A stretch of DNA of 64,000 nt, taken from contig NZ_KB899418.1 in the NCBI RefSeq assembly GCF_000378205.1, positions 1 through 64,000 of the forward strand, given 5' to 3'. Of the stretch, positions 16,762-36,494 are shown in pieces. The notes below the pieces were generated by a model that was not told where the DNA came from, ran no database searches, and was given only the letters and a program-made list of their open reading frames with translations. The stretch's first letter is position 1. Each line of letters starts with the position of its first letter. Origin of the DNA: Sediminispirochaeta bajacaliforniensis DSM 16054. GTDB lineage: Bacteria > Spirochaetota > Spirochaetia > DSM-16054 > Sediminispirochaetaceae. The translations under genes and the position numbers were made by a program.

Positions 16762-18243
16762 TCAATAGAGGCCGAAAGGTTTTTCGGTCATACTGATATA
16801 GATGTTCTTCATCTGCGTGTAGTGATCGAGTATCACTTTGTGGGTCTCACGCCCGATACCCGACTTTTTGTACCCTCCGAAGGGGGCATGGGCAGGAAGA
16901 TTATTATAGTTATTTACCCACATACGTCCTGTTTCCACGGCTCGGGCGACCCGGAAAGCACGATTGATATCCTTTGTCCAAACGGCACCGCCGAGACCAT
17001 ATTCGCTGTCGTTTGCCATATCAATGACTTCCTGCTCGCTCTTAAACTTGATTACGGCGGCAACAGGGCCGAAAATCTCTTCCTGAGCAACCCTCATGCT
17101 GTTCTTTACATCCACAAGCATGGTTGGCTTCATGAAAGCACCGTTTTCAAGTCCATTACCCTCTGCCCGAGTTCCGCCGCAGGCAATCTTCGCCCCCTCT
17201 TTTTCTCCGATATGTACATAGGCGAGGATTTTATCGAGCTGATTCTGATCAATCTGGGAGCCCATGACCGTATCTTTTTCCCACGGCATCCCCACCTTGA
17301 TGCTGTTAAAGGCTTTAACGAGCTGGGCGAGGAACTTGTCGTAGATATCCTCATGAACGAAGACACGGGAACCAGCGCAGCAGACTTGTCCCTGGTTGAA
17401 CAGTATCCCCATCTGAACGCCTTCGATGGCCTTATCCCATGGAGCATCGGGGAAGAAGATATTTGCAGATTTACCACCCAATTCCAAGGTTGCGGGGATC
17501 AATTTCTTGGCAGCGGCATCGGCAATCTGATACCCGACCTCCGTTGAACCCGTAAAAGCCAACTTTCTTAAATCCTTATGATCAAGGAGGAACTGGCCGG
17601 CTTGAGACCCTCTGCCGGTAACGACATTGAGAACTCCGGGAGGCAGTACGTCGTTGACCAGCTTTGCAAACTCAAGGATACTGAGAGAGGTTGAGCTTGA
17701 GGGCTTAATCACGACACAACACCCCGCCGCAAGAGCAGGAGCAATCTTCCAGGCAGCCATCGTAAAAGGGAAATTCCAAGGTATGATCTGCCCGACCACT
17801 CCGATGGGCTCACGGAGAATGATGCTCATGGTCTGATCGTCGATCATCACCGCCTGTCCCTCTTCCGCGCGAATGGCACCAGCGAAATAGCGAAAATGAT
17901 CGGAACCGAGGGGAACATCGATTCCGGATGTCTCCCTGATCGGTTTACCGTTGTCCAGCGTTTCAATCATTGCCAACTTATCGAGATTGGCGTCGATCAG
18001 GTCGGCAATCTTAAGCAGAAGCGCCGATCGTTCCTGAGGACTGATCTTTTTCCAGCCGTCGAAGGCCTTCCATGCAGCCTTCACCGCCTTATCGACATCC
18101 TCTTTACTGGCGTCGGGAAAGGTAGCAAGGACCTCTCCGTTGGCAGGGCAGTACGCAGTACAAGTTTTCCCGTTCGAGGCTTCCACCCATTGGCCCCCGA
18201 TCAGCATCTTGTACTTTTCATCCATTGGTCTCGGCATGTTCAT
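16762..18243 (-). CDS. NAD-dependent aldehyde dehydrogenase
   Basis: This 493-residue class 1/2-type aldehyde dehydrogenase has the catalytic asparagine in IIPWNFPFTMAAWK, the nucleotide loop AFTGSTEVGYQI, the general base in TLELGGKSANIFF and the nucleophile in NQGQVCCAGSRVFV. The C-terminal part has PFGGYKKSGIGRE. It oxidises an aldehyde to the acid with NAD(P). The gene lies behind a sigma-54 promoter and next to an AcoR-like activator, the usual setting of acetaldehyde dehydrogenases used in ethanol or acetoin metabolism, so acetaldehyde is the likely but unproven substrate. All catalytic residues are present. Confidence 0.92.
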   Translation of the reverse strand: MNMPRPMDEKYKMLIGGQWVEASNGKTCTAYCPANGEVLATFPDASKEDVDKAVKAAWKAFDGWKKISPQERSALLLKIADLIDANLDKLAMIETLDNGKPIRETSGIDVPLGSDHFRYFAGAIRAEEGQAVMIDDQTMSIILREPIGVVGQIIPWNFPFTMAAWKIAPALAAGCCVVIKPSSSTSLSILEFAKLVNDVLPPGVLNVVTGRGSQAGQFLLDHKDLRKLAFTGSTEVGYQIADAAAKKLIPATLELGGKSANIFFPDAPWDKAIEGVQMGILFNQGQVCCAGSRVFVHEDIYDKFLAQLVKAFNSIKVGMPWEKDTVMGSQIDQNQLDKILAYVHIGEKEGAKIACGGTRAEGNGLENGAFMKPTMLVDVKNSMRVAQEEIFGPVAAVIKFKSEQEVIDMANDSEYGLGGAVWTKDINRAFRVARAVETGRMWVNNYNNLPAHAPFGGYKKSGIGRETHKVILDHYTQMKNIYISMTEKPFGLY

Positions 18244-18300
18244 GTGCGTTCTCTCCTTATTACGTTTTCTTATGGGTAAGCACGTACCCGCTTAGTTATT

Positions 18301-18317
18301 ATGCAAAAAACGTACCA
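18301..18317 (-). promoter_or_regulatory. Sigma-54 promoter of the aldehyde dehydrogenase operon
   Basis: On the minus strand TGGTACG-TTTT-TTGCAT has the invariant GG and GC with exactly ten bases between them (complement of cc 18315-18316 and gc 18303-18304). This matches the sigma-54 consensus TGGCAC-N5-TTGCA with one difference. Transcription would start near 18291, about 48 bases before the dehydrogenase ATG. Confidence 0.8.
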
Positions 18318-18443
18318 AAAGGCATGGACATGGTGTTATTGGCAAAATCATGGTAAAATAAGCAGGAAAAACGAAGATATCATCTGTGATGTGTGATATT
18401 TCGGAATATTCGAAGTTCCTTCATCGCAGGTGATGCCACGATG

Positions 18444-18495
18444 GTGTCACTTTTTTTTGCAAAAATGATACAGTTACGTTACACCTTTGTGACAC
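18444..18495. promoter_or_regulatory. Candidate upstream activator sites for the sigma-54 regulator
   Basis: GTGTCAC (18444-18450), GTTACAC (18478-18484) and GTGACAC (18489-18495) are copies of one motif; the first is inverted relative to the last. The last two start 11 bases apart, about one helical turn. They lie 130-190 bases upstream of the sigma-54 promoter, the normal position of enhancer sites, and just before the regulator start at 18534. This also favours the short form of the regulator gene. Confidence 0.5.
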
Positions 18496-18533
18496 TTTTT
18501 TGGACCATTGTTTTAGCAAAGGGTGATGTAATA

Positions 18534-20525
18534 ATGGAATCAAGTGCGACTGAGACAAAGGTGATGTGGGAACGATTCATCACAAAAGGTCGAATCGAAG
18601 AGGGAGCTCTTCGTAAAGAGATTACCGAGGCCTGGATGCGATGTATTAATGCATCCGTTGATCCCTTTGCGGACCGAAGCAGCACGGTACTCCCCCAGCC
18701 CTTCCTCAACGAAATTCTACAACATCATAAAACCCTCATCGATATCGCCCGTCCCTTTATGGAAAACCTCTATCGATTCGTCGCGGGATCGGGGTTCGTG
18801 GTTATTTTATGTGATGAAAAGGGGTATCTGATGGAGGCCGTAGGCGATAACGACGTGCTGTACGGTGATCACGGCTTGAATCTCCAACAGGGCGCATGGT
18901 GGGCGGAGGAAGAGGTCGGAAACAACGGAGTGGGAACGGCGCTCCGTCTAAAACGCCCATTCCAGGTCTCCGGTGCGGAGCATTTCTGCCGTAAGCACCA
19001 TCCATGGACCTGTTCAGGGGCTCCTATCTTTGACGACAACGGAAGGGTCATTGCGGTCTTGGAGATGTCAGGGCCTGTTGAGAAGACCCACCTGCACACT
19101 CTCGGCATGGTTGCGGCCGGTGTGGAAGCAATTCAGCAGCAGATGAGGGTTAAGAAACAAAATCGGGAGCTGACGGTCCTGAATAACAGCCTCAATAACA
19201 TCTTTCTCACCGTTTCCGATGGTGTCATTGTCATTGATTCCAGAGGCGCCGTCGATCAGGTAAATCCAGCGGCGGAAAACATTTTGCATCAAAGTGCGGA
19301 GAAATTGGCGGGACATCCCTTTCAGGAGTATATCGATAATTGGCATCCCATTCATGAGATGCTTGAAATGGGTACTGCTTTCCACGAAATCGAACTTTCG
19401 ATCAACGACGGCGATGGTGCCATCACCTGCCTCACCTCGGCAAAACCAATCAAAGACGGCGGGGGAACAGTCACAGGCGGGGTCATTTTCATCAATCCCA
19501 TCACACGGATCAAAAAACTCATCAACCGTTTCAGCGGGGCCCACGCTTCTTTTACCTTCGATGATATCATAGGATGCGGCCAGTCGCTGAGCAAAGCAAT
19601 CCATCTGGCAAAACTGGTGGCGGACAACGAAAGCATCGTACTGCTCAGCGGCGAAAGCGGGACCGGTAAAGAGATGTTTGCCCAGGCGATACACAATAAA
19701 AGCAATCGGAGGAAGGGCCCTTTTGTGGCGGTAAACTGTGGTGCGATCCCTCGGGAACTGATCGAAAGCGAACTTTTCGGTTATGTGGAGGGGGCGTTCA
19801 CCGGTGCACGAAAACGGGGAAAGCCCGGAAAATTCGAGCTGGCCTCGGGAGGGACCCTCTTTCTCGACGAAATCGGAGAGATGCCCCTTGAACAACAGGT
19901 TGCATTGCTAAGAGTTCTCCAGGACAAGAGTCTTACCCGTATCGGCGGCGATAAAACGGTAATGATCGATACCAGGATCATCTGTGCCACCAACAAGAAT
20001 CTCCAACTGGAAGTGGCACGCGGGACCTTTCGTCAGGACCTCTACTACCGCCTCAATGTGATCTCGATTCATCTTCCCCCATTGCGTGAACATCGTGAGG
20101 ATATCCCGACAATGTTCGAGGTGTTTCTTGAAAATGCCTGTAAAAGGATCGGTGTGAAGGTCCCCCGGATAAACGATGAGGTGATGCAGCGCCTGCAATG
20201 TTACGATTGGCCCGGTAATGTGCGAGAATTTCGAAATGTTGTCGAGCGGGTGGTCAATATGACGGCCGGTAGCGATATTTGCCCGGAGAACCTTCCCGAT
20301 GAAATTCTCTCTCCGCGAAAAGGGCTCTGGCCTTCGCCGATGCTCAGTGAGGCCCACAATTTCGATGAAGAGCGAAAGAAGATAAAAGCACTGGCGGAAA
20401 AGAAGGAGCAGGAAGAAATTCTTGCGATGTTGTATAAGCATAACGGCAATGTCAGCCAGGCTGCACGTGAAATGGGCATTTCAAGGAATTCACTCTATCG
20501 GAAAATGCATAAACAAGGCGACTGA
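18534..20525 (+). CDS. AcoR-like sigma-54-dependent transcriptional activator (GAF-PAS-AAA+-Fis)
   Basis: From ATG 18534 the protein has about 663 residues: an N-terminal GAF-type sensor (about 70-205), a PAS domain (about 215-330), the AAA+ activator domain (about 345-575) and a Fis-type helix-turn-helix (about 620-660). The AAA+ part has Walker A GESGTGKE, the sigma-54-contacting loop GAFTGARKRG and Walker B GGTLFLDEIGEM. The DNA-binding end reads NVSQAAREMGISRNSLYRK. An earlier in-frame start at 18393 exists, but it would add a non-family stretch covering the presumed activator sites. It very probably drives the divergent aldehyde dehydrogenase promoter. Confidence 0.9.
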   Translation: MESSATETKVMWERFITKGRIEEGALRKEITEAWMRCINASVDPFADRSSTVLPQPFLNEILQHHKTLIDIARPFMENLYRFVAGSGFVVILCDEKGYLMEAVGDNDVLYGDHGLNLQQGAWWAEEEVGNNGVGTALRLKRPFQVSGAEHFCRKHHPWTCSGAPIFDDNGRVIAVLEMSGPVEKTHLHTLGMVAAGVEAIQQQMRVKKQNRELTVLNNSLNNIFLTVSDGVIVIDSRGAVDQVNPAAENILHQSAEKLAGHPFQEYIDNWHPIHEMLEMGTAFHEIELSINDGDGAITCLTSAKPIKDGGGTVTGGVIFINPITRIKKLINRFSGAHASFTFDDIIGCGQSLSKAIHLAKLVADNESIVLLSGESGTGKEMFAQAIHNKSNRRKGPFVAVNCGAIPRELIESELFGYVEGAFTGARKRGKPGKFELASGGTLFLDEIGEMPLEQQVALLRVLQDKSLTRIGGDKTVMIDTRIICATNKNLQLEVARGTFRQDLYYRLNVISIHLPPLREHREDIPTMFEVFLENACKRIGVKVPRINDEVMQRLQCYDWPGNVREFRNVVERVVNMTAGSDICPENLPDEILSPRKGLWPSPMLSEAHNFDEERKKIKALAEKKEQEEILAMLYKHNGNVSQAAREMGISRNSLYRKMHKQGD

Positions 20526-21799: not shown

Positions 21800-22711
21800 T
21801 CAACGAGAAGCCGCCTTTGCAATCTCTGCATGCATATCACGACAAAATCCGATAAACTCTCCGACAAAAGGCATGGGAGAGAATTCGGTATAGACAAACG
21901 TAATTTGACGTTCCAGGATACCGGATGAAAACGGAATTGCAGAGAGGCTTCCCAAAAGAAGTTCGCGCTCTACCGCATGCCGCGACATAACCGAACAGCC
22001 GAGACCAGATTCACAAAGAACCTTTATCGCACTCAGGCTCCCCACCTCCATGACAACGGAGCTCTCATCGATGTGAAGTCCCAACCTCCCGAGGAATTGT
22101 TCAAAATGCTCCCGGGTGCCCGAACCACGTTCTCGAAGGACCAGGGGGTAGGTGTTGATCTTCTCTTCGTGTACCACCCTATCCCTGGCCCAGAGACTAT
22201 CAGCAGCGGTAATAAAAAGCAATTCGTCAAAAAGAAAAGGTTCATGCAGAAAACGTGAAGAATCAAAAGGGCCCTCAATGACGGCGAGATCGATTTTTCC
22301 TTTCTGTAGCAGTTCGAGACATCGAAACGTATTTTCAATCGTCACGTTGAGCTCCCGCCTTTCATGACCCTGCTTATACCGGGCGAGATATCGGGGTAAA
22401 AGGAATTCTCCCACCGTCAAGGTTGCCCCGAGAGAGAAGAATCTCCGGCCTCCCTCGAAATTCAAGAGCTCTTTTCTAATCTGGCGCGAGTGGACGGCAA
22501 GAATTTCGCCTTCATGCTGTAGGAATTCTCCGGCTTGGGTGAGTTGAACGCCCCGTCCACTCTTCTCAAATAACTGCGCCCCAAACAGCTCTTCTAAATG
22601 ATGAATATGCTGGGTTACGGCAGGCTGTGTAAGCCCTAAAAGCTCCCCTGCCTTGGTAAAATTTCCTTCACGGGCAGCCGTCAAAAAGGTGACAAGACGA
22701 AAATCAAGCAT
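21800..22711 (-). CDS. LysR family transcriptional regulator
   Basis: This 303-residue protein has a standard LysR plan. The winged helix-turn-helix (1-60) reads RLVTFLTAAREGNFTKAGELLG and LTQPAVTQHIHHLEELFGAQLF. A linker helix follows, then a substrate-binding-like effector domain (90-295) with ERELNVTIENTFR-like strand and SLSAIKVLCESGLGCSVMSRHAVERE. It begins 9 bases after the stop of the synthase-Cache gene on the same strand, so the two are co-transcribed and it probably controls that gene. The helix-turn-helix segment is close to the CysB/Cbl-type group, but no closer assignment is made. Confidence 0.9.
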   Translation of the reverse strand: MLDFRLVTFLTAAREGNFTKAGELLGLTQPAVTQHIHHLEELFGAQLFEKSGRGVQLTQAGEFLQHEGEILAVHSRQIRKELLNFEGGRRFFSLGATLTVGEFLLPRYLARYKQGHERRELNVTIENTFRCLELLQKGKIDLAVIEGPFDSSRFLHEPFLFDELLFITAADSLWARDRVVHEEKINTYPLVLRERGSGTREHFEQFLGRLGLHIDESSVVMEVGSLSAIKVLCESGLGCSVMSRHAVERELLLGSLSAIPFSSGILERQITFVYTEFSPMPFVGEFIGFCRDMHAEIAKAASR

Positions 22712-22719
22712 AAAGATCT

Positions 22720-24546
22720 CTAACGGGCATCATCCTGAACGATTCCCTCCGGCAATTTGTTTATCAGTTTCATTAACTCTTCAAACATGAAGTCGATGTC
22801 GATGACGGCCCTGATATTTCCCTTCTCATCCCGAATGGGAAACGCAGCAGTCAAGATCAGCCTATTGGTATAAAGGGAAAAGAAAAGATGGGATATATAC
22901 GGCTTACCCGTTTCAAGGACCTGGCGGAACCACTCCTTTTCCTGAAAATTCTTGGTAAGCAAGTTTCTGAACAGAGATTTCTCGCCATGCTTCGAATAAA
23001 TTTGACTTATGCGAAAACCATCGGTGTTCGTCACGGCCAGAAGCTGGATCGATCCTTCCCTTTTGACGATCTTGCCAAGGTAACCGTCCATTACAGCGGG
23101 ATCGAGAGTCTCCAGCTCCGGGGCATGGGTCACATCTTCAGCAATTACCATGGCAATCCGTTTTGCCTCTTCCTTTGCCTTGTCCAGTTCCGATTCAAAG
23201 AGCCCGGGAAGATAGCGCCTGGCCTGTGCCATAAGCTCATCGTATGATATTGCAGTGGTCCGTCCATGTGTATATTGAGTAGAAACCCAGAGAGCTATAT
23301 GGCGGATGCCGGGCGAACGTTTTGTCACCTTTTCGCATTTTCCCGATTTGATCAGTGAAACATTTTCGTTGAGCCAGCGGGCGATACCGGCAAGCCCGGA
23401 TTTATCGGTTACCATGGTGCGAATGGGGCGGCCAAGCAATGTTTCGGTATCGAAAATATTGTAGATCTCGGGATTTTTGAGGATCCCGTCGGCATGGATC
23501 CCCGCCCTGGTGGTGTTGAAGTTTTCTCCGGTAAAGGGATAGTTTTCCGGTATGTCGGCACGTATCTCACTGCGAAAGTAGTCGGCAATCTCACTTATGA
23601 CCGTGGTATCTATCGAATCATCACCGGTAAGCGACATGTATTCGATGACTGCCGCCTCAAGAGGAGGGTTTCCAGTACGTTCACCATAGCCCAGGATACT
23701 GGTATTGTTGGATGCGCAACCGTAGAGCCAGGCGCTTGCGGCATTGATATGGACCTTATGAAAATCATTATGGCCGTGCCATTCGAGTAATTCCGAGGGA
23801 TAGCCCAATTCGGAGTGAAAGGCATGCACCAGCCTGGGGACCGAGCGGGGAAGCACGGCTCCGGGATAGGTGACCCCGTATCCCATGGTATCGCAAAGCC
23901 GGATTTTAACCGGCACCTTTGCCTCCTGGGAAAGATCCAGGAGTTTTTCCGCAAGGGGCAGGCAGAATCCATAGACATCCGCCCGTGTAACATCCTCGAA
24001 ATGACAGCGGGGAATGATGCCCTCGGCAAGGCACTCTTTTACAATGCCGAGATAGGCATCCGCCATCTTTGCCCGGTCCGATTTCAGTTTTAGGAAGATA
24101 TGGTAGTCGGAAACCGAGGTCAGAATACCAGTCTCCTTCAGCCCCAGGGATGTAACCAATTGAAAATCCTTTTTATCGGCTCGTATCCAGGAGGTAATCT
24201 CGGGGAATCGATATCCCTGAGCCTGACACAGGCCCAGGGCCTCACGGTCACGCTCGCTGTAGATAAAAAATTCGGTCTGTCGAATGAGGCCCTTTTCTCC
24301 GGAAAGCTTGTGGAGAAGGCTATAGATATGGGCGATCTGTTTGGGCGTATAGGGAGGCCGGGACTGCTGCCCATCACGAAAGGTGGTATCGGTTATCCAT
24401 ATCTCCTTGGGAAGATTAATAGGAACATCAACGCCGTCAAATCTGATTCTTGGAACAGCCGTATAGGGGAACTGATCGCGATACAGTTCGGGAAGATCCC
24501 TCCGAACCAATGGAAAACTTCTTTTTTCAGAACCAATAAGCTCCAT
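22720..24546 (-). CDS. Re-citrate-synthase/isopropylmalate-synthase-like enzyme fused to a C-terminal Cache-type sensor domain
   Basis: Residues 45-400 form a DRE-TIM (HMGL-like) aldolase barrel. Signatures are WITDTTFRDGQQSRPPYTP (catalytic Arg and metal Asp), ILTSVSDYHIF, RCHFEDVTRADVYGF, LEWHGHNDFHK with metal histidines near H257, and GYGERTGNPPLEAA. The wording of these blocks is close to what I recall of anaerobe Re-citrate synthases, with homocitrate and isopropylmalate synthases as alternatives. Residues about 480-600 are a separate domain with EWFRQVLETGKPYISHLFFS and LILTAAFPIRDEKGNIRAVI, the pattern of Cache/PDC ligand sensors, here without any membrane helix. Such a tail could regulate the enzyme allosterically, replacing the LeuA dimer domain. 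A LysR gene follows directly. Confidence 0.8.
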   Translation of the reverse strand: MELIGSEKRSFPLVRRDLPELYRDQFPYTAVPRIRFDGVDVPINLPKEIWITDTTFRDGQQSRPPYTPKQIAHIYSLLHKLSGEKGLIRQTEFFIYSERDREALGLCQAQGYRFPEITSWIRADKKDFQLVTSLGLKETGILTSVSDYHIFLKLKSDRAKMADAYLGIVKECLAEGIIPRCHFEDVTRADVYGFCLPLAEKLLDLSQEAKVPVKIRLCDTMGYGVTYPGAVLPRSVPRLVHAFHSELGYPSELLEWHGHNDFHKVHINAASAWLYGCASNNTSILGYGERTGNPPLEAAVIEYMSLTGDDSIDTTVISEIADYFRSEIRADIPENYPFTGENFNTTRAGIHADGILKNPEIYNIFDTETLLGRPIRTMVTDKSGLAGIARWLNENVSLIKSGKCEKVTKRSPGIRHIALWVSTQYTHGRTTAISYDELMAQARRYLPGLFESELDKAKEEAKRIAMVIAEDVTHAPELETLDPAVMDGYLGKIVKREGSIQLLAVTNTDGFRISQIYSKHGEKSLFRNLLTKNFQEKEWFRQVLETGKPYISHLFFSLYTNRLILTAAFPIRDEKGNIRAVIDIDFMFEELMKLINKLPEGIVQDDAR

Positions 24547-24568
24547 AACGGCCTCCTTTAATACAAGT

Positions 24569-26966: not shown

Positions 26967-28490
26967 TTATGCCGGTTCCCGTTCCTCACCAAACTTGTCT
27001 TCAAATCTGGTCGCAAGTTCGAGGATCTTTTCCTGGGTAACCTCCGAAGCATCAAGCTCCCCTGTTACCCTTCCGTCGCACATCACGATGATTCTGTCGG
27101 CAATGCCCATGATTTCCGACATTTCAGACGAGACGAACAGAACCCCGATCCCTTCGCGCTTTAATTCGTTCATGAGGTTGTAGATCTCAACCTTCGCCGC
27201 AACATCGATACCTCGGGTCGGTTCGTCGAACATAACTATTCGGCTTTTTCTTGCAAGCCACTTACCTACTACGATCTTCTGTTGGTTTCCTCCAGAAAGG
27301 CTGGCGGCGGGAACGTCGGCATTCGGCATGCGCACGGAAAAACTCTTTTTCGTCTGCCGCACCATCTCCGACTCACGGTGGCGGTTTACCACGCCCAGAC
27401 GGTTACAGATGATATCAAGGTTCGGTAAGGCGATATTTTCACGGATGGAGAGTTTTATGCACAGTCCATCTTTCTTACGATCTTCGGGAACAAGGACCAC
27501 GCCCTGACGAATGGCGCTTGCGGGAGAATCAATGGAAATGGGCATACCGTCAAGGATAAAACCTCCTGAATCCCTCGCATCAATACCGAAAATCGCCCGG
27601 GTCGTCTCGGTTCTGCCCGCACCCATCAAACCGGCAATGCCTACGATTTCTCCTTCATTGACCGTAAAGGAGACATCGCGGACCATCCGTCCGGCATTGA
27701 GGGAACGCACCTCGAAAATGGTCTTTCCCTTGTGACCTTCGATACGCGGAAACTGTTCATTGATCTCTCGGCCGACCATGTTTCCGATAATTTGATCCAT
27801 GGTCAAATCGGTAAAATTGCTTTGAAGGATGAACTTCCCATCCCGCATGATGGTCACCCGATCAACGATATGTTTCAGCTCTTCAAGACGGTGACTTATA
27901 TAGACGATACCGTGTCCTTTCGCTCTCAGTTGCCTGATAAGGATAAAAAGATCGTCGATCTCTTTGCTTGTCAGGGCACTGGTCGGCTCATCCATGATGA
28001 GAATACGTGCATTACTGGAGAGAGCCTTTGCAATCTCCACCATCTGCTGTTTGGAAACAGCAAGGTCACCGACAAGCATGTCGGGATCGATATCGATCTG
28101 AAGCTGGCCAAGGATATCCGCCGCCTGGTGCCTCATATCCCGATCGTTGAGGATCCCCCCTGCAACCACATGTTCCCTCCCGAGGAAAATATTCTCGGCA
28201 ACGGTAAGATGAGGGCACATGTTGAGTTCCTGATGGATGATTGCAACACCATGCCTTTTCGCCAGCTTAGGGTTCAGGTCCCCTACCGACTCTCCGAAAA
28301 TGGTGAGGTCCCCTTTGTCGCGGGTATAGACACCGCTGAGAATTTTCATGAGGGTGGACTTACCTGCGCCGTTTTCTCCCAAAAGGGCCATTACCTCTCC
28401 CGAACGCAGCTCGAAAGAGACGTCATCCAGTGCCTTGACCCCGGGAAACGACTTATCAATATGTTCCATGGTTACGATTACTTCGTTCAT
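26967..28490 (-). CDS. Sugar ABC transporter ATP-binding protein (RbsA type, two ABC domains)
   Basis: This 507-residue protein has two ABC domains. The N-terminal one is fully catalytic: GENGAGKSTLMKIL, the signature-like LAVSKQQMVEIAKAL, Walker B ILIMDEPTSALT, and the switch YISHRLEEL. The C-terminal one has the usual degenerate Walker A of sugar importers (GLMGAGRTETTRAIFG) but a good LSGGNQQK and VMFDEPTRGID. It powers the importer. It directly follows the degenerate ABC homologue (62 bases downstream on the minus strand), which makes the contrast between the two paralogues informative. Confidence 0.93.
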   Translation of the reverse strand: MNEVIVTMEHIDKSFPGVKALDDVSFELRSGEVMALLGENGAGKSTLMKILSGVYTRDKGDLTIFGESVGDLNPKLAKRHGVAIIHQELNMCPHLTVAENIFLGREHVVAGGILNDRDMRHQAADILGQLQIDIDPDMLVGDLAVSKQQMVEIAKALSSNARILIMDEPTSALTSKEIDDLFILIRQLRAKGHGIVYISHRLEELKHIVDRVTIMRDGKFILQSNFTDLTMDQIIGNMVGREINEQFPRIEGHKGKTIFEVRSLNAGRMVRDVSFTVNEGEIVGIAGLMGAGRTETTRAIFGIDARDSGGFILDGMPISIDSPASAIRQGVVLVPEDRKKDGLCIKLSIRENIALPNLDIICNRLGVVNRHRESEMVRQTKKSFSVRMPNADVPAASLSGGNQQKIVVGKWLARKSRIVMFDEPTRGIDVAAKVEIYNLMNELKREGIGVLFVSSEMSEIMGIADRIIVMCDGRVTGELDASEVTQEKILELATRFEDKFGEEREPA

Positions 28491-28551: not shown

Positions 28552-30018
28552 TCATTCTTTGGATATGTGTACGGAATCGAGAGAAGAGAAGGTCTGTCGC
28601 GCTATTTCTCGCACGACTCTGCCGTTTTTTACCACCAAAAGCCGGTCGGCGACCTGAAGGGAATCGGAAAGACTGACAGCAAGAATGAGGACAGCAATTC
28701 CCCGCTGCCTGATCAGATTGATAAGCTGAATGATACGAAGTCTCTGATAGAAATCGATGCCGGCAAAAGGCTGGACACAGACAACCAGACGCGGTTTCTG
28801 TAACAATATACGATGATAGACCAACTCATAAAGATCGTGGAGCGAGAGCCCTGCAAGGGAAGGGGCATCGATCACCGGTCCTATCAGCGGAAGGTATTCC
28901 CGTCGAATGCTTCGCAGATAACGCCTCTTTGTCCAGAAGAACGGGAGACGATCATCGGCAAGGAAACAAAGGTTATCCAGATAGCTCATATCGGCGAAGA
29001 GGTTACTGCGGGTGGGTTTTTCATCGATGAAGGCAAAAAGCCGTCTGGCTTTTGAAAAAGAGCGGCCCGCTATACGGATACTCCCCTTTTCCGGCGTTTT
29101 TTTATCACGACAAAGAGCGAGGAATGGGGAAAGCAGGGAATTATCGAGGTCAAGGAGGATAAGGCATTCACCGGCAAAAAGTGAGAGCGAAAGGTCCTGA
29201 ATCGTCTCCCGATAGAGATTTCGAAGCTCAAGAACGGGTTTTTCGGCTCTCCGCTTATCGGTTGTCTGCCTGGGAGCATCCTTGTTAATAAAAAAAACAA
29301 ACCCCTGGGGGAAGCGGCACATGAGATCGTTATTCATTTGGTCCGCTCGCAGGGTCTTGAGGATTTTCCCATCCTCCATCAAGACCGTTCGATTGCAAAG
29401 GGGAAAAACCTCTTCATGATGGTTGCAGACATAGAGAAACGAGAGGCCGAGGGAGGCATAGTAGCGAATCACCCGATGGATACGCGACAGGTCAACGGGA
29501 CTCGCAACATTACTAACATCCCTAATAATGATCAAACGGGCACCGGCAACCACTGCTTTCAGCAATTCCACCAGCCAGCGCGTAAAAAAGGGCAATCGTT
29601 CTACCGGTTCATGCGGGGGAATTGAGATATCAAGCCCCTCACACAACCGTTCCAACTGATCGGAAAGCACCCCATCGTTTATGAGGTACTTTTTCATGCC
29701 GCCACGAACAACGAATATATTGTCGGTAACACTCATCGACCCGATGAGCCTGCTCCGTTTTTCAATAACGGCAACAGGATTCGCAGTCGAACGCTTCCAG
29801 CGATAGTCATTCACTACCCTCTCGAAAAACCACACATAACCGTAACGGATAGGCCCGTTATACTTGATGAGGTCGAGGAGCTCCTCCAACCCCTGGGCGT
29901 TGATGGGTATAAGCCCGAGAATTTCCCCCACAAAGAGATGCATGCTCAGCGAATCAAGCAACTTGACGTTTTCCCGATAGATCGTGATTCTGTCAAGCCA
30001 CAGGAGCTCCTTCCTCAT
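28552..30018 (-). CDS. Degenerate RbsA-like ABC protein without catalytic motifs (pseudo-ATPase)
   Basis: The 488 residues follow the two-domain RbsA plan from end to end, with strand, helix and switch positions recognisable (LYVCNHHEEVFPLCNRTVLM; VLILAVSLSDSLQVADRLLVV). All ATP-binding motifs are lost. The first Walker A reads GLIPINAQGLEEL (35-47) and the second ILLDLDNSLLSPF. The signature positions read LPFFTRWLVELLKA and LSLHDLYELVY, and the Walker B positions read LIIIRDVSN and VVCVQPFAG. The frame is intact over 1.47 kb, so this is not simple decay. The ATG overlaps the stop of the kinase gene (ATGA, 30015-30018) and a true RbsA follows. It is probably a non-catalytic partner linking transporter and two-component system; that role is inference. 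Confidence 0.82.
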   Translation of the reverse strand: MRKELLWLDRITIYRENVKLLDSLSMHLFVGEILGLIPINAQGLEELLDLIKYNGPIRYGYVWFFERVVNDYRWKRSTANPVAVIEKRSRLIGSMSVTDNIFVVRGGMKKYLINDGVLSDQLERLCEGLDISIPPHEPVERLPFFTRWLVELLKAVVAGARLIIIRDVSNVASPVDLSRIHRVIRYYASLGLSFLYVCNHHEEVFPLCNRTVLMEDGKILKTLRADQMNNDLMCRFPQGFVFFINKDAPRQTTDKRRAEKPVLELRNLYRETIQDLSLSLFAGECLILLDLDNSLLSPFLALCRDKKTPEKGSIRIAGRSFSKARRLFAFIDEKPTRSNLFADMSYLDNLCFLADDRLPFFWTKRRYLRSIRREYLPLIGPVIDAPSLAGLSLHDLYELVYHRILLQKPRLVVCVQPFAGIDFYQRLRIIQLINLIRQRGIAVLILAVSLSDSLQVADRLLVVKNGRVVREIARQTFSSLDSVHISKE

Positions 30019-31037
30019 TGTACCCCCGATTTTTGATCAACGATCCGCGGCAAAACAACCTCCACGTCGGTACCGACGGATGGTGTACTGGTAATGGTCA
30101 CCCCATATTGCTCACCAAAAAGAAGTTTGATGCGGTTATTGACGTTTACGATCGCAATGCCACCCCGATTCCGTCCTCCACTCACATGACTTAGAGAACG
30201 TATGGCAAGATTTCGATTTAGTTCCTCGAGCACTTCGTTTTCCATGCCGACGCCATCGTCACTCACGGTAATGAGTAGGCGGGTCTCGGTCGTTTCCAGC
30301 TGAACCCGCAAGAGCCCCTCCCCGACCTTACGTTCCAGGCCATGCAGAATAGAGTTCTCTACAATGGGCTGAAGAATCAGCTTGGGCAAGCGGTAGGCAT
30401 AAATTTCCGAGCGCTCAGCCTCGTCTATCTCAATACGCAGCTGCAGCCGCTTGCCGAAGCGATACTGCTGAATCAGAAAATAGGTTTCGATATTGCCGAG
30501 CTCATCCTCGACCGTAACAAGATGATCCATGGTACTGATGGTATAGCGGAAGAAGGTGGAAAGGGCCTCGGTCATTTCGGCTATGGAATGTACCCCCGCA
30601 CTTAAGGCCTCGCTGCGAATACCCTCCAGGGTGTTATAGAGAAAATGGGGATTTATCTGGTTTTGCAGGGCAAGATACTGTTCCTGACGTTTACTCGCCT
30701 GAAGCAGATCCCGGGTCTGCAAGAGCTCGTTCAGCCTTGCAAGGGTGTCATGCATTCCCGCGCTGTAGGGATACCGGACGTCGTAGACCCCCTCCAGGGT
30801 ATAACCCGCTGCAAAAAGTGCAAGCAATTTCTCAGTTTCGTTAAAGGGAACCACGATCTTCTGCCAGGTTATGCCAAAAAGGGTCGCCAGAAAAACGGAG
30901 AAAAGCAAGGGAAGCCAGATTGAGACAATCTCTTCGGCGGCAAGGGACCATAGCACCACCACGGCGATGAGCATGGCAAAGAAAAGAAGTGCAAAGAGTA
31001 GTAAAAGCTGTACCATCAAACCCATTTTTCGAACCAC
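30015..31037 (-). CDS. YesM/LytS-type sensor histidine kinase with minimal membrane anchor
   Basis: About 340 residues, with the start placed at GTG 31037 after GAGGTG. Two hydrophobic helices at the N-terminus (LLLLFALLFFAMLIAVVVL and IWLPLLFSVFLATLFGI) are separated by only a few residues, so there is no periplasmic sensor domain. Then come a short HAMP-like linker, the phospho-acceptor block LQNQINPHFLYNTLEGIRSE and an ATPase domain with LILQPIVENSILHGLE and VSDDGVGM. YesM kinases usually carry a large extracellular sensor. Its absence suggests the signal comes from another membrane protein, most likely the ABC importer encoded in the same operon. The stop overlaps the start of the degenerate ABC gene. 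Confidence 0.88.
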   Translation of the reverse strand: MVRKMGLMVQLLLLFALLFFAMLIAVVVLWSLAAEEIVSIWLPLLFSVFLATLFGITWQKIVVPFNETEKLLALFAAGYTLEGVYDVRYPYSAGMHDTLARLNELLQTRDLLQASKRQEQYLALQNQINPHFLYNTLEGIRSEALSAGVHSIAEMTEALSTFFRYTISTMDHLVTVEDELGNIETYFLIQQYRFGKRLQLRIEIDEAERSEIYAYRLPKLILQPIVENSILHGLERKVGEGLLRVQLETTETRLLITVSDDGVGMENEVLEELNRNLAIRSLSHVSGGRNRGGIAIVNVNNRIKLLFGEQYGVTITSTPSVGTDVEVVLPRIVDQKSGVQ

Positions 31038-31045
31038 GGGGCACC

Positions 31046-32659
31046 TCAACTGTACAACTTGCGAAATTCACTCGGTTTTATTCCAACCATCCGTTTAAAA
31101 AGCCGGGTAAAATACTTCGTATCGCTATACCCGATCGCAGAAGAAATCTGAGCGACCGTCTGCTTGGAAGAGCGCAGAAGCTCTTTTGCGTAATCAATGC
31201 GGATACCAGTCAGATACTCAAGGAAACCGGACCCTGTTTCCCGTTTGAATATGAGGCTGAAATAAGAGGGGCTGAGACCCACTATGTCGGCTACCTGTTC
31301 AAGAGAAATTCCGCTCTCCCTGTAGTGATCACCGATGTAACGTCTGGCCTCTCTGATTGGCCGGCTCTCCGCCTGTCGCCGTGATTCGGCCATCGATTCC
31401 AAAAGAGTCTTTGTGAGTGTGCGAAGACGATCATGCAGGGCCTTTACACTAGGCAGGAGGTCCAATTCACTCTCGAAACGCCTCTCAAGGGCCGAAAGAT
31501 CTTCAAGGAACTCCTCACCGCGATTTCTTAAAAGAACAAAAAGGCGATGACCGGCATCCTTGAGCGCATCAAGAAGAAGAACGCCTGTACACGCTTTCTG
31601 TGACAACACCGAGCGCATTAGTCTGTCGACAGCCCCCATGGCCGCCTCTGTATCAAGGAGATCACAGGCATGTTCCATATCACGATTCCATACGGCCAGG
31701 GCATCATTACAAGAACCGGACGAAAAAGGGGGAAGCTCCTCATACAGCTGACCGGTTTGAGAAAAGAGGCGTTGTCCTATGGCGATCTCGGCATCTCTGC
31801 GGGACTCGGCTATTCGTCCGATAGCATCGATGGCCTGTCCGAGGGAAGTGGTAAGCTGAACGACCTCAAAGATACTCCCCTGGACTTGCAATTCGTCGTT
31901 GATACGTTTTACCGCTTTTCTTACTTCTTGTCGTTCCGATTCCGGATACCCAATCACAATATGTATCCGACACACGCCGATATAAAGTTCCAAATCGCTT
32001 GAACACCCATCGAGAAAGGCATGAGAAGCCGATTCCGCCTTTTCCGCGATCATGCGCACAATACCGTCGGAAAAATCAGAGGGCGGACAATCAATCTTTA
32101 TCATGATGGCTTGAAAAAGGCCGTCGCGAAAGTGATAGCCATAGGTATCGTTGATCGTTTCCAGTTCAACATGACAATCGGAAGGGAAAGCAAAGACAAA
32201 ATCATGGAAAAAATCTTTTCGAAGTTTGCCAAGGCTGTTTTCAAGACGAGCAGCAAGTTCCCGACTACTCTGCTCTGCAGAAACACGCCGATAATGCCGT
32301 TCCGCTATCTTTTCCAAGGTGGCTGTCAACTCATCCTTTTTAATGGGCTTGAGCAAGTAATCCTCTACACCGTAACGAATAGCGTTATGGGCATATTCGA
32401 ACTGATGATAACCGCTTACAATGATAAAATCGATACCTTCCGTACTTTCCCTGATTCGTCTGATCAACTCAAGGCCGTCAAGTCCGGGCATACGGATATC
32501 GGTAATGACAAGATCGGGCCTTTCACGCTCTACAAGGGCCAGGCCGTCGATGCCGTTGTATGCCGTACCGACCACCTCCATTCCCAGGGAAGACCAATCA
32601 ACCAGCTGAAGTATCAACCGACACACTTTTTCTTCATCGTCGAGAACAACGACCGTCAC
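31046..32659 (-). CDS. YesN-type response regulator (REC plus AraC helix-turn-helix)
   Basis: This 537-residue regulator has a receiver domain (1-120) with the acidic pair in VVLDDEEKV, the phosphorylation site in PDLVITDIRMPGLDGLEL and the switch Lys in LLKPIKKDEL. A long middle region (125-425) of unknown fold follows, then a C-terminal AraC double helix-turn-helix (about 435-535) with ISLEQVADIVGLSPSYFSLIFK and TVAQISSAIGYSDTKYFTRLFK, here quoted as ISLEQVADIVGLSPSYF and QISSAIGYSDTKYFTRLF. It starts with GTG after GGAGG. As first gene of the six-gene operon it probably activates the operon itself when phosphorylated by the kinase encoded next. Confidence 0.92.
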   Translation of the reverse strand: MTVVVLDDEEKVCRLILQLVDWSSLGMEVVGTAYNGIDGLALVERERPDLVITDIRMPGLDGLELIRRIRESTEGIDFIIVSGYHQFEYAHNAIRYGVEDYLLKPIKKDELTATLEKIAERHYRRVSAEQSSRELAARLENSLGKLRKDFFHDFVFAFPSDCHVELETINDTYGYHFRDGLFQAIMIKIDCPPSDFSDGIVRMIAEKAESASHAFLDGCSSDLELYIGVCRIHIVIGYPESERQEVRKAVKRINDELQVQGSIFEVVQLTTSLGQAIDAIGRIAESRRDAEIAIGQRLFSQTGQLYEELPPFSSGSCNDALAVWNRDMEHACDLLDTEAAMGAVDRLMRSVLSQKACTGVLLLDALKDAGHRLFVLLRNRGEEFLEDLSALERRFESELDLLPSVKALHDRLRTLTKTLLESMAESRRQAESRPIREARRYIGDHYRESGISLEQVADIVGLSPSYFSLIFKRETGSGFLEYLTGIRIDYAKELLRSSKQTVAQISSAIGYSDTKYFTRLFKRMVGIKPSEFRKLYS

Positions 32660-32796: not shown

Positions 32797-34722
32797 ATGA
32801 AGATGAAACTAAGAAACGAAATTCTCATTCCCATTCTGCTGACGGTGGTCATGGTTCTGGGTGGAATGACGACCCTGATCGTCGTACGTGTCGGCAAAAG
32901 TGCGAAGCAGGATGCGGAAAGCCTAGCGTTGGAGATAGCAGCGCATCAGGGCAATCAGTTTATATCTCAAATTGTTGTCGGGCTTGAAACTGCAAAAACC
33001 ATTTCAGGTGCTATGGCATCGATCGTAGAAAACAAGTTGGACATTGGGCGGGAAGAGGCAAATTTGATGCTCAAAACCATTCTTCAGGAGCACCCCGATC
33101 TTCTTGGGGTATGGATGGTATGGGAGCCGAATGCCTTTGACGGTAAGGACAAGCTGTATATCGATACGGTTGGGCATGACGAGACGGGCAGATTCATTCC
33201 CTACTGGAATCGCGTGGGAGGCTTACATCTCGAACCGACAATGGATTACGACGGTGGGGTTTATTATGAGGTACCGTTAAAAGAAAACAGGCTGTATGTA
33301 ACCGAACCGACCGTCTACGAAATCGGCGGAAAGAATACAATGGTGATCAGCCTAGCCGCTCCCATACGGGTAAACGGTAAGGCTGTAGGTGTCGCAGGCC
33401 TCGACCTTTCCATGGAACAGATGCAGGCTCTGGTTGCCGGAATTAAACCCTTTGAAGTCGGCTATGCCTATGCCGTAAGCCAGGAGCTGACAATGGCCGC
33501 TTATCCTCAAAGCGACATGATAGGCACATCTGCATTGGAGCATGTCAATTCAAAATATAAACAGGCCTTTAGCGAAGCCGTTAAGAATGGAACTGTTTTT
33601 CAGTTTCAGCAGGAATCGGCAAAAGACAAGGTTGTCTCCCTGCAGACCATCTATCCTCTCCACATAACCGGTGTAGAAGAGAACTGGGCCTTCGGCATTT
33701 CAATTCCGATGGATGTGGTTCTGACCCAAGCCCGAAATCTTGCCTTCCTCTCCGTGGCCATCAGCATCGTCGCTATTCTGCTTATAGCACTCATTATCTT
33801 CCTTATAACACGCAATATCGTTCAAAGCATTATCAAAGGGATAGATCTGGCAAAGGAAATTGCGATGGGTAACCTTACCGTTGCTGTCGACCGGCAATAT
33901 CTTTCCCGAAACGACGAGCTGGGAGAACTCGCAAAAAACCTGAATGACATGAAGAATCAGCTTTCACGTGTTGTTTCCGAGGTCATCAACTCGGCTGAGA
34001 ACATTACCAGTGGTAGCGGACAACTCAGCGAGAGTGCCGAGCAGCTCAGTCAGGGAGCTTCGGAACAGGCAAGCTCAGCCGAGGAAGTAAGCGCCAGCAT
34101 GGAAGAGATGGCAAGCAGCATTCGAAACAACGCCGATAATGCCTCAGAAACAGAGCGTATGAGCAAGCAGGCGGCCATTGAGGCAAAGGAAAGCGGAGAG
34201 ATTGCCGCAAGAGCCGTTGTTGCAATGAAAAATATTGTAGAGAAGATCACCATTATTGAAGAGATTGCACGGCAGACCGATCTACTCGCACTCAACGCTG
34301 CCATCGAAGCAGCCCGAGCCGGTGAACATGGAAAGGGCTTTGCCGTCGTCGCAAGCGAGGTCCGCAAATTGGCAGAACGAAGTCAGAAGGCGGCAGGAGA
34401 GATAAACGAACTGTCACGACACACCGTCAAGGAAGCCGATGAGTCCGGACAGAAACTGGAGGCCCTTGTCCCCGTCATTCAGAAAACGGCCGAACTCGTT
34501 CAGGAAATAAGTGCGGCCAGTAAAGAACAGAATAGCGGAGCCGAACAGATTAATCAGGCCCTTCTTCAGCTTGATCAGGTGATCCAGCATAATGCATCGG
34601 CATCCGAAGAGACAGCTTCCACGGCCGAAGAGTTGGCCGCCCAGGCAAAGCTGCTGCAGCAAGTGATAGCCTATTTCCGTGTCGATGAAGAGGAAAACCT
34701 GCCTGCTGTCACCGATTATTAG
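32797..34722 (+). CDS. Methyl-accepting chemotaxis protein with Cache sensor domain
   Basis: This 641-residue transmembrane chemoreceptor has an N-terminal helix ([21 protein letters not shown]), a periplasmic double-Cache-type sensor (about 40-305) with [17 protein letters not shown] and [16 protein letters not shown], a second helix (about 308-332), HAMP, and a signalling domain. The signalling tip reads [20 protein letters not shown] and [18 protein letters not shown], a standard consensus. Cache domains bind amino acids, organic acids or other small nutrients. It is divergent from the sugar-sensing operon, so it may respond to the same or a related nutrient, but the ligand is not evident. 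Confidence 0.92.
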
Positions 34723-34862: not shown

Positions 34863-36494
34863 CTATTGAGCTTCCGTCGTATCTCCAATCCTCATAATGG
34901 CCATAAAGCTCTCCATCGGGAAGACGAGGGAGGAAATCAGCCGCTCTTTTTTCGAACCGACGCTTCCCCCCAAGGTGATTCCATCGGGAAATGCAATCTG
35001 CATCTCCGAAGCGGGAACGAGAGCAAAAAGCTTTGAAATATCGGCGGTCCAGAAAAGATGCGGAAAGCTTACACTCTGTGCCCCTTGAGAAGGCTCAAAA
35101 CGGTGGTGAGGCATCTCGACAAAGGCATCCAGCATAGCCGGTCCACCCTTTCCCATATAGGAATACACCATGTGATCACCGGCACACATGTAAAGCGTAT
35201 AGAGATCGGAAAAACGTTCGAGTTCTTCACCTTCCGCTCCGAGGGCATCAATTCCGCTATAGCTGGTAACAAGCTTGAGATAGGGACGGCCAGCCGGAGT
35301 TGTCCCCTCTTCCATCTCCTGCTTTATGCCAAGGGGAAACGAGTTCCCGAACATTTTCTTGAGCAGCAAGCCGGTAAGCTCGTTACGGACGGAAGTCTTG
35401 CTCCTTTCAATATATGCTTCGGGGTCACTTGCACCTGCGGCAATACCTAAACTGAAATGAATATCTTCAATTCCCGAACCGGCAGGAAGCCCCATGGAGA
35501 ACGAGAAAGCCGCATAACCGGTAGCCAATCTATTCAGGGCCCGATAATCGTCCATCATGGTTTTCAGCGCCTTCGCACCCTCCGAAGTTCCATCCATATC
35601 GTCCAGGAAAAACCCGTAAAAGGCATCCATCATAGCGTTCGAGTCCCGAGGATCGAGACCCATAACCCCGCTGATCATGGCATCGGGCAAATAAGGGGCC
35701 TCAAATTCCGCTAAATCATTCATAGGCTTGAGAGAACGAAGCAGGGAACCGGTTTTTCCATCCAAGGAGAGGTCACTATTGAGCACCATTCCGTTTTCAT
35801 CGGCACTAAGCGCTGCTGAAACAAAATCGATATCATGAAGCAGAGCAAGATACTTCTCAACGAGAGTACCGACCCATGCCATCTCACCATTGTTCGACGC
35901 AGCCATCTGATCAGACAGCTCCTTGGCGTCAAGTCCCAGCGAATCTATCAGGCTGCCGAAGTCCAAATATGCCTGGATCGAGGAATCGGGATAGTCGCGA
36001 AGGGTTGAGAGGTCAGTATGCTCCTTCGGCGGAAAATCTTCCATGAGTTCGGTCTTTGAAAAAAGAACAAGATATCCTTTATAGAACATCCAGTGGTCAT
36101 CGCCGGAATTGAGCTTTTCGGCAAGGCTATTCACATCTACGACATCGGCAAGAGGGATAAAAAGCATAAACCTATCGGGGTCAGCGGTTATATCATCGCT
36201 TATCAAGGCAACTCCCACCGGCTGGGAAAAATTCAATTCTTCCATCGTAAAAGGAATCCCTTTGGCAATAAGCATCGTAGACAAAAAATCTTTTATTGGG
36301 ATACCGCCGATGTACGCATCAAAGCCCAGCGGCTTCATAAACTTGTCGAGATCCGTCATGAGAGCATCTCCGTTGGGAATCTGCATATAGAGCGCCGTCC
36401 CCCGGGGAACCATGGTCTCAATGATTGGCGTAGAAGCACAGCTGGACAAAAGTAAGGCAAGTACAGCAAGCCCGGAATAGAAAAATTTCTTCAT
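34863..36494 (-). CDS. Large predicted lipoprotein of unknown function
   Basis: This 543-residue protein starts with a lipoprotein signal (FFYSGLAVLALLLSSCAS, lipid-modified Cys at about 19). The mature part begins with RGTALYMQIPNGDALMTDLDKF and alternates helices and strands in a pattern resembling DUF3352-type proteins (for example GYLVLFSKTELMEDF, a typical strand-helix unit, and two related halves). It probably sits in the outer or inner membrane leaflet facing the periplasm. It is a single gene between a terminator and the NanA cluster. I do not recognise a precise family and give no function. Confidence 0.72.
   Translation of the reverse strand: MKKFFYSGLAVLALLLSSCASTPIIETMVPRGTALYMQIPNGDALMTDLDKFMKPLGFDAYIGGIPIKDFLSTMLIAKGIPFTMEELNFSQPVGVALISDDITADPDRFMLFIPLADVVDVNSLAEKLNSGDDHWMFYKGYLVLFSKTELMEDFPPKEHTDLSTLRDYPDSSIQAYLDFGSLIDSLGLDAKELSDQMAASNNGEMAWVGTLVEKYLALLHDIDFVSAALSADENGMVLNSDLSLDGKTGSLLRSLKPMNDLAEFEAPYLPDAMISGVMGLDPRDSNAMMDAFYGFFLDDMDGTSEGAKALKTMMDDYRALNRLATGYAAFSFSMGLPAGSGIEDIHFSLGIAAGASDPEAYIERSKTSVRNELTGLLLKKMFGNSFPLGIKQEMEEGTTPAGRPYLKLVTSYSGIDALGAEGEELERFSDLYTLYMCAGDHMVYSYMGKGGPAMLDAFVEMPHHRFEPSQGAQSVSFPHLFWTADISKLFALVPASEMQIAFPDGITLGGSVGSKKERLISSLVFPMESFMAIMRIGDTTEAQ

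Follow-up and report, generated by a model that had tools for sequence, protein, structure and literature searches.

A predicted cytosolic Cache domain at the C-terminus of a probable Re-citrate synthase in Sediminispirochaeta bajacaliforniensis

Cache domains are the commonest extracellular sensors of bacteria. What does such a domain do at the end of an enzyme? The question is raised by a gene of S. bajacaliforniensis DSM 16054 located in the window analyzed here, a stretch of 64,000 nucleotides (positions 1 to 64,000 of contig NZ_KB899418.1, assembly GCF_000378205.1). A preliminary description of its sequence had proposed an HMGL-type condensing enzyme in the first 400 residues and a Cache domain without a membrane segment at about residues 480-600, in the position where LeuA carries its regulatory domain. 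As shown in Table 1, this layout was upheld.

Table 1. Features of the gene and its downstream neighbor, in window coordinates.
Feature	Coordinates	Strand	Evidence
Coding sequence of 608 aa, condensing enzyme of the HMGL type (probable Re-citrate synthase), Cache domain at C-terminus	22720..24546	-	ORF, Pfam, 99% identical ortholog in closed genome, dN/dS
Ribosome-binding site AAAGGAGG, 5 bases before ATG, good	24552..24558	-	Sequence read
HMGL TIM barrel, residues 50-322; FRDGQQ (56-61), HGH (257-259), N293	23581..24399	-	PF00682 (HMGL-like) E 1.4e-20; residues invariant in 62 orthologs; model match to homocitrate/isopropylmalate synthases
Post-barrel subdomain (HCS_D2-like), residues 339-450, H351 in GIHADG	23197..23532	-	PF22617 26.2 bits at 339-409; last segment common to tailless orthologs
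Tail, long helix (453-473) and Cache/PDC domain, residues 453-599	22750..23190	-	AF2 pLDDT 92.3; Foldseek KinD 4.9e-9, VIA Z 15.5; 62/62 tails match PF22673 and PF02743
Putative pocket motif K537-E-W539-F540	22927..22938	-	R-x-W-F in most orthologs; aligned to PctA R126/W128/Y129, R also to KinD R131
S557, invariant 62/62	22876..22878	-	PctA D146 position in alignment
D585, invariant 62/62	22792..22794	-	PctA D173 position in alignment
LysR-family regulator, 303 aa, directly downstream	21800..22711	-	PF03466/PF00126; 94% identical neighbor in S. smaragdinae

The gene was placed on the minus strand because a plus-strand reading, which contains five stops, was ruled out. A 608-residue protein with 99% identity is encoded in the closed 4,653,970-bp genome of a sister species, which we take to be Spirochaeta smaragdinae from the published size of that genome (PMC3035371), and the reading frame is therefore not an assembly artefact. 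Between the two species, dN/dS was 0.065 for the tail, 0.043 for the tail core, and 0.025 for the barrel, meaning that purifying selection acts on the tail as well as on the barrel. In Pfam, HCS_D2 fell just under its cut-off of 27 bits, dCache_1 matched residues 487-601 (E 1.5e-10) with 41.5 bits, slightly under the curated cut-off of 45, and MCP-like_PDC_1 (PF22673) matched residues 510-591 with 27.2 bits, just over its cut-off of 27.0. LeuA resembles the protein in its barrel fold and in having a domain after the linker, but differs in that this domain is LeuA_dimer (PF08502), for which Pfam gave no match in the 608-residue protein; the Cache domain stands in that place. No membrane helix was found in the protein, where the Kyte-Doolittle mean over 19 residues peaks at 1.09. 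A Cache domain usually lies outside the cytoplasm between two membrane helices, whereas this tail has no hydrophobic segment and by its sequence is cytosolic.

We modeled the tail (residues 453-599) with AlphaFold2 on 62 orthologs, which gave a long N-terminal helix followed by one PAS-like module rather than a double Cache. Foldseek ranked KinD first (4jgo; its pyruvate complex 4jgp followed at 5.2e-9), then WalK, Tlp3 with amino acids, DcuS, CitA with citrate, and the cytosolic YkuI. VIA-align superposed the model on these structures with Z from 15.6 to 12.6 over 127-137 residues, which is most of the domain. A tail profile searched against the PDB agreed (Tlp3 1.9e-11, KinD 2.1e-10, PctA 9.6e-8), and both Pfam families were matched by every ortholog tail at E 0.01. 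By profile and by modeled structure alike, the tail is a Cache/PDC fold. The preliminary description would have been refuted by a tail of some other fold, or by one shared by all characterized Re-citrate synthases with another known function; we found the Cache fold, and clostridial orthologs without any tail. Elsewhere in the window, the first PDC domain of a methyl-accepting chemotaxis protein (32797-34722, plus strand) belongs to the same family, PF22673, as the enzyme tail.

All 62 aligned tailed orthologs carry the Cache tail, and they come from about ten phyla. Tailed copies were found in Thermodesulfobacteriota, Myxococcota-labelled MAGs, Nitrospirota, and Spirochaetota, and in records of Lentisphaerota, Omnitrophota, Elusimicrobiota, Fibrobacterota, Auribacterota, and Margulisiibacteriota. 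Matches turned up in 92 genomes of the order around Syntrophaceae, none of them with a clear tailless ortholog; within one Bacillota phylum, 36 matches from 31 genomes all stopped short of the tail. Spirochaetota held 16 tailed and 22 tailless copies, with two genomes having one of each (G271, loci L174 and L185; G305, loci L171 and L186). Tailless proteins come to an end at the start of the tail region, and a search of 12 of their loci found no tail encoded as a gene of its own. The Clostridium kluyveri type of Re-citrate synthase, judged from such clostridial proteins, shares the HMGL barrel and post-barrel subdomain but differs in lacking the Cache tail, the sampled orthologs ending at query residue 438-463. 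On a tree of the barrel, tail presence requires 8 changes (gains or losses), at least 4 of them forced by supported branches, in a sample ranked by similarity to the tailed query. One tailless protein, L009, lies inside a supported tailed clade and looks like a loss. Since whole lineages are tailless, catalysis probably does not require the tail.

One tailed ortholog comes from a genome of 3,179,300 bp that we take to be Syntrophus aciditrophicus, the Re-citrate synthase of which was reportedly characterized by Kim et al. in 2013. This genome encodes a single ortholog (629 residues, 71.8 kDa, tail 201 bits) and no Si-citrate synthase (PF00285). The 608-residue protein has the same barrel and the same tail, shares 50% identity with this ortholog over 583 residues, and falls inside the same family tree; it differs in that its own genome also has a Si-citrate synthase. 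An article citing that study presents the S. aciditrophicus Re-citrate synthase as known and isolated (PMC12016533). Almost certainly, then, the characterized enzyme bears the Cache tail. Being both widespread and present in that enzyme, the tailed architecture is not peculiar to S. bajacaliforniensis. Intracellular Cache domains also have precedents in the YkuI_C and Diacid_rec families, which are found on signaling or transcription proteins (PMC4822843). On these points the preliminary view of the tail as a new allosteric module on a cytosolic enzyme needs qualifying. The C-terminal domain of YkuI is similar in arrangement, a cytosolic Cache that follows an enzyme domain, EAL (VIA Z 12.6), but its partner is a c-di-GMP signaling domain. 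Its family, PF10388, was matched by 20 of the 62 tails and not by that of the 608-residue protein.

We next considered the conservation of a putative ligand pocket. Across the 62 tails, W539, S557, L563, and D585 never vary, while F540 (conserved in 61), T566, T560, and R537 (56, with K in 3) nearly never do. In the HMM alignment, R537-x-W539-F540, Y/F555, S557, and D585 fall on R126, W128, Y129, Y144, D146, and D173 of PctA, a dCache_1AA protein. In that family of amino-acid sensors, R126 bonds the ligand carboxyl, W128, Y144, and D173 belong to the ligand site, and Y129 is structural (PMC10104139). KinD R131, which aligns at R537, is the residue changed in the R131A mutant structures 4jgq and 4jgr. 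KinD of B. subtilis is also a long profile match, with SDSYSSRITG against TDLYTSKITG in the tail, but its sensor is extracellular and belongs to a histidine kinase of the membrane, and it lacks an equivalent of D585. The 608-residue protein itself has K at 537, where most tails have R, and F at 555. Positions mapped to the pocket averaged 3.64 bits compared with 2.44 bits for the rest of the tail core (permutation p 0.0005).

A strict dCache_1AA identity for the tail was rejected, because it lacks two positions of the amino-acid motif as well as a second Cache module. Of the PctA residues, R126, W128, Y129, Y144, and D173 are kept as R/K, W, F, Y/F, and D, but Y121 falls at the variable position 532 without a conserved counterpart and D146 is replaced by S557, a serine as in KinD. 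The tail thus does not appear to be a standard sensor of this kind; it also differs from PctA in being a single Cache without membrane segments. The residues that are retained, we infer, would best suit a small carboxylate or an amino acid as ligand.

LeuA is regulated by leucine through a C-terminal domain unrelated to Cache. The conserved pocket, in a LeuA-like position, points to allostery of the enzyme by its tail. In the mechanism we propose, the HMGL-type synthase would form citrate from acetyl-CoA and oxaloacetate, and its C-terminal 155 residues, modeled as one Cache (PDC) domain on a long connecting helix, would bind glutamate, the end product, or a 2-oxo acid such as pyruvate or 2-oxoglutarate via R/K537-x-W-F, Y/F555, S557, and D585. 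The bound ligand would move the helix along with the subdomain that adjoins the active site, and this movement would turn synthesis up or down, as leucine does via the C-terminal domain of LeuA. Allostery appears to be the best-supported mechanism, in a call that we regard as nearly balanced, with a structural role as its main rival. The complete reading, of a cytosolic HMGL synthase (most likely a Re-citrate synthase) with a C-terminal Cache acting as an allosteric module for small carboxylates or amino acids, is one to which we would give an even chance on the sequences and models. Against it count the K at 537 in this protein, the two PctA positions that are not kept, and the Si-citrate synthase of the genome.

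The structural role would make the tail a ligand-free module for dimerization or stability, with the Cache fold reused as a scaffold and its residues kept for folding. The existence of entire lineages with tailless orthologs accords with this, as does the fast divergence of the tail (median identity to orthologs of 28% versus 61% for the barrel), and conservation of W, D, and similar residues may serve the fold rather than a ligand, the W/D positions being general to Cache domains. Nonetheless, folding requirements sit poorly with the significantly greater conservation of pocket-mapped positions than of the remaining core, and with the location of R537-x-W-F and S557 at ligand-pocket residues of KinD and PctA. 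We consider a scaffold unlikely on balance, though worth serious attention.

The full-length model matched homocitrate, isopropylmalate, and related synthases, and R57, D58, H257, H259, N293, and H351 were invariant in the 62 orthologs. Among 78 more genomes with the enzyme, located via named contigs, Si-citrate synthase was absent from 57 (about 73%), as compared with 1 of 14 control genomes and 7 of 41 genomes of the spirochaete class; many carrier genomes are MAGs, so some of these absences may be gaps. In relatives, co-directional genes adjoining the enzyme gene encode NADP-isocitrate dehydrogenase (over cut-off, L105), malate dehydrogenase (L073, L087), and succinyl-CoA ligase beta (L110, L111). 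An aconitase-family large subunit adjoins it in L056 and L077, where the match does not separate aconitase from related dehydratases. Genome content and gene neighbors imply that the family is most likely Re-citrate synthase, with citrate formation as its predicted reaction. The preliminary description of a citrate/isopropylmalate-synthase-like enzyme was right about an HMGL synthase and is narrowed here to this probable activity.

Within S. bajacaliforniensis itself, the neighbors of the enzyme gene are not TCA genes, and the genome also codes for a Si-citrate synthase of 450 residues (NF010635, 725 bits). This rules out Re-citrate synthase as the organism's only citrate synthase, and the enzyme is not the sole citrate source there. 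A second gene of the citrate-synthase family in the same genome (L146:1117-1866) is nearest to citryl-CoA lyases, under their cut-offs. The barrel could in this genus be a relative acting on another 2-oxo acid, such as a homocitrate or citramalate synthase, for which the resident Si-citrate synthase provides an argument, along with a best NCBIfam match to nifV homocitrate synthase (124.8 bits, far under the cut-off of 462.9). We find this improbable given barrel identities of 60-75% to orthologs that lie beside TCA genes and in genomes without Si-citrate synthase, and given the invariance of catalytic and post-barrel residues. Least credible of all is a tail that persists as a functionless vestige of an old fusion, an idea to which tailless members of tailed lineages such as that of L009 lend something, but which is hard to square with the low dN/dS of the tail and its core or with four residues held invariant across about ten phyla.

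The preliminary description had also drawn attention to the LysR gene directly downstream. It is adjacent and on the same strand, 8 bases away, and is probably co-transcribed with the enzyme gene. As a conserved partner it was rejected: it was not found in 14 other loci (flanks of 0-6 kb), the sister species excepted, and among the loci examined the linkage is local to the genus. Other genes in the window are of separate interest. On the minus strand, 28552-30018 encodes an RbsA-like double ABC ATPase that is degenerate: both Walker A motifs are gone, as is the signature motif, and identity to the intact ATPase at 26967-28490 is 24%. Its gene has the transporter genes on one side and, on the other, those of a histidine kinase (30015-31049), which it overlaps by 4 bases, and a response regulator (31046-32659); the product may be a pseudo-ATPase that links the state of the transporter to this two-component system. 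A 543-residue open reading frame at 34863-36494 (minus strand) had no Pfam or NCBIfam match, and at 16762-20525 an aldehyde dehydrogenase gene diverges from that of a sigma-54 activator resembling PrdR/DhaR.

When placed in context of what has been described, the protein is a real variant of known parts that apparently has not been reported. Our literature search, which covered few subscription papers, found none joining a Cache domain with isopropylmalate or homocitrate synthase, and its matches for Cache with citrate synthase were unrelated by title. To our knowledge, the tail of the S. aciditrophicus Re-citrate synthase has never been discussed. As protein-family databases would display this domain combination automatically, the pair is better called unremarked than unseen. 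A survey from 2016 gave signal transduction as the output of Cache domains, the SMP_2 family excepted, and named no metabolic enzyme among the outputs (PMC4822843).

These results place a Cache domain on an enzyme at the entry to the TCA cycle. If the tail binds a ligand, it would offer a soluble, assayable system in which Cache sensing is read directly as enzyme rate, without a membrane or a kinase, and natural tailed and tailless orthologs, including the pairs within single genomes, are ready controls. We propose tentatively, at somewhat less than an even chance, that a receptor-type Cache was taken into the cytosol as an allosteric domain, giving a TCA-cycle or amino-acid metabolite control over citrate synthesis in many anaerobes. 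We know of no described mechanism for the control of carbon flow in anaerobes that use Re-citrate synthase, and this pairing of domains could explain it.
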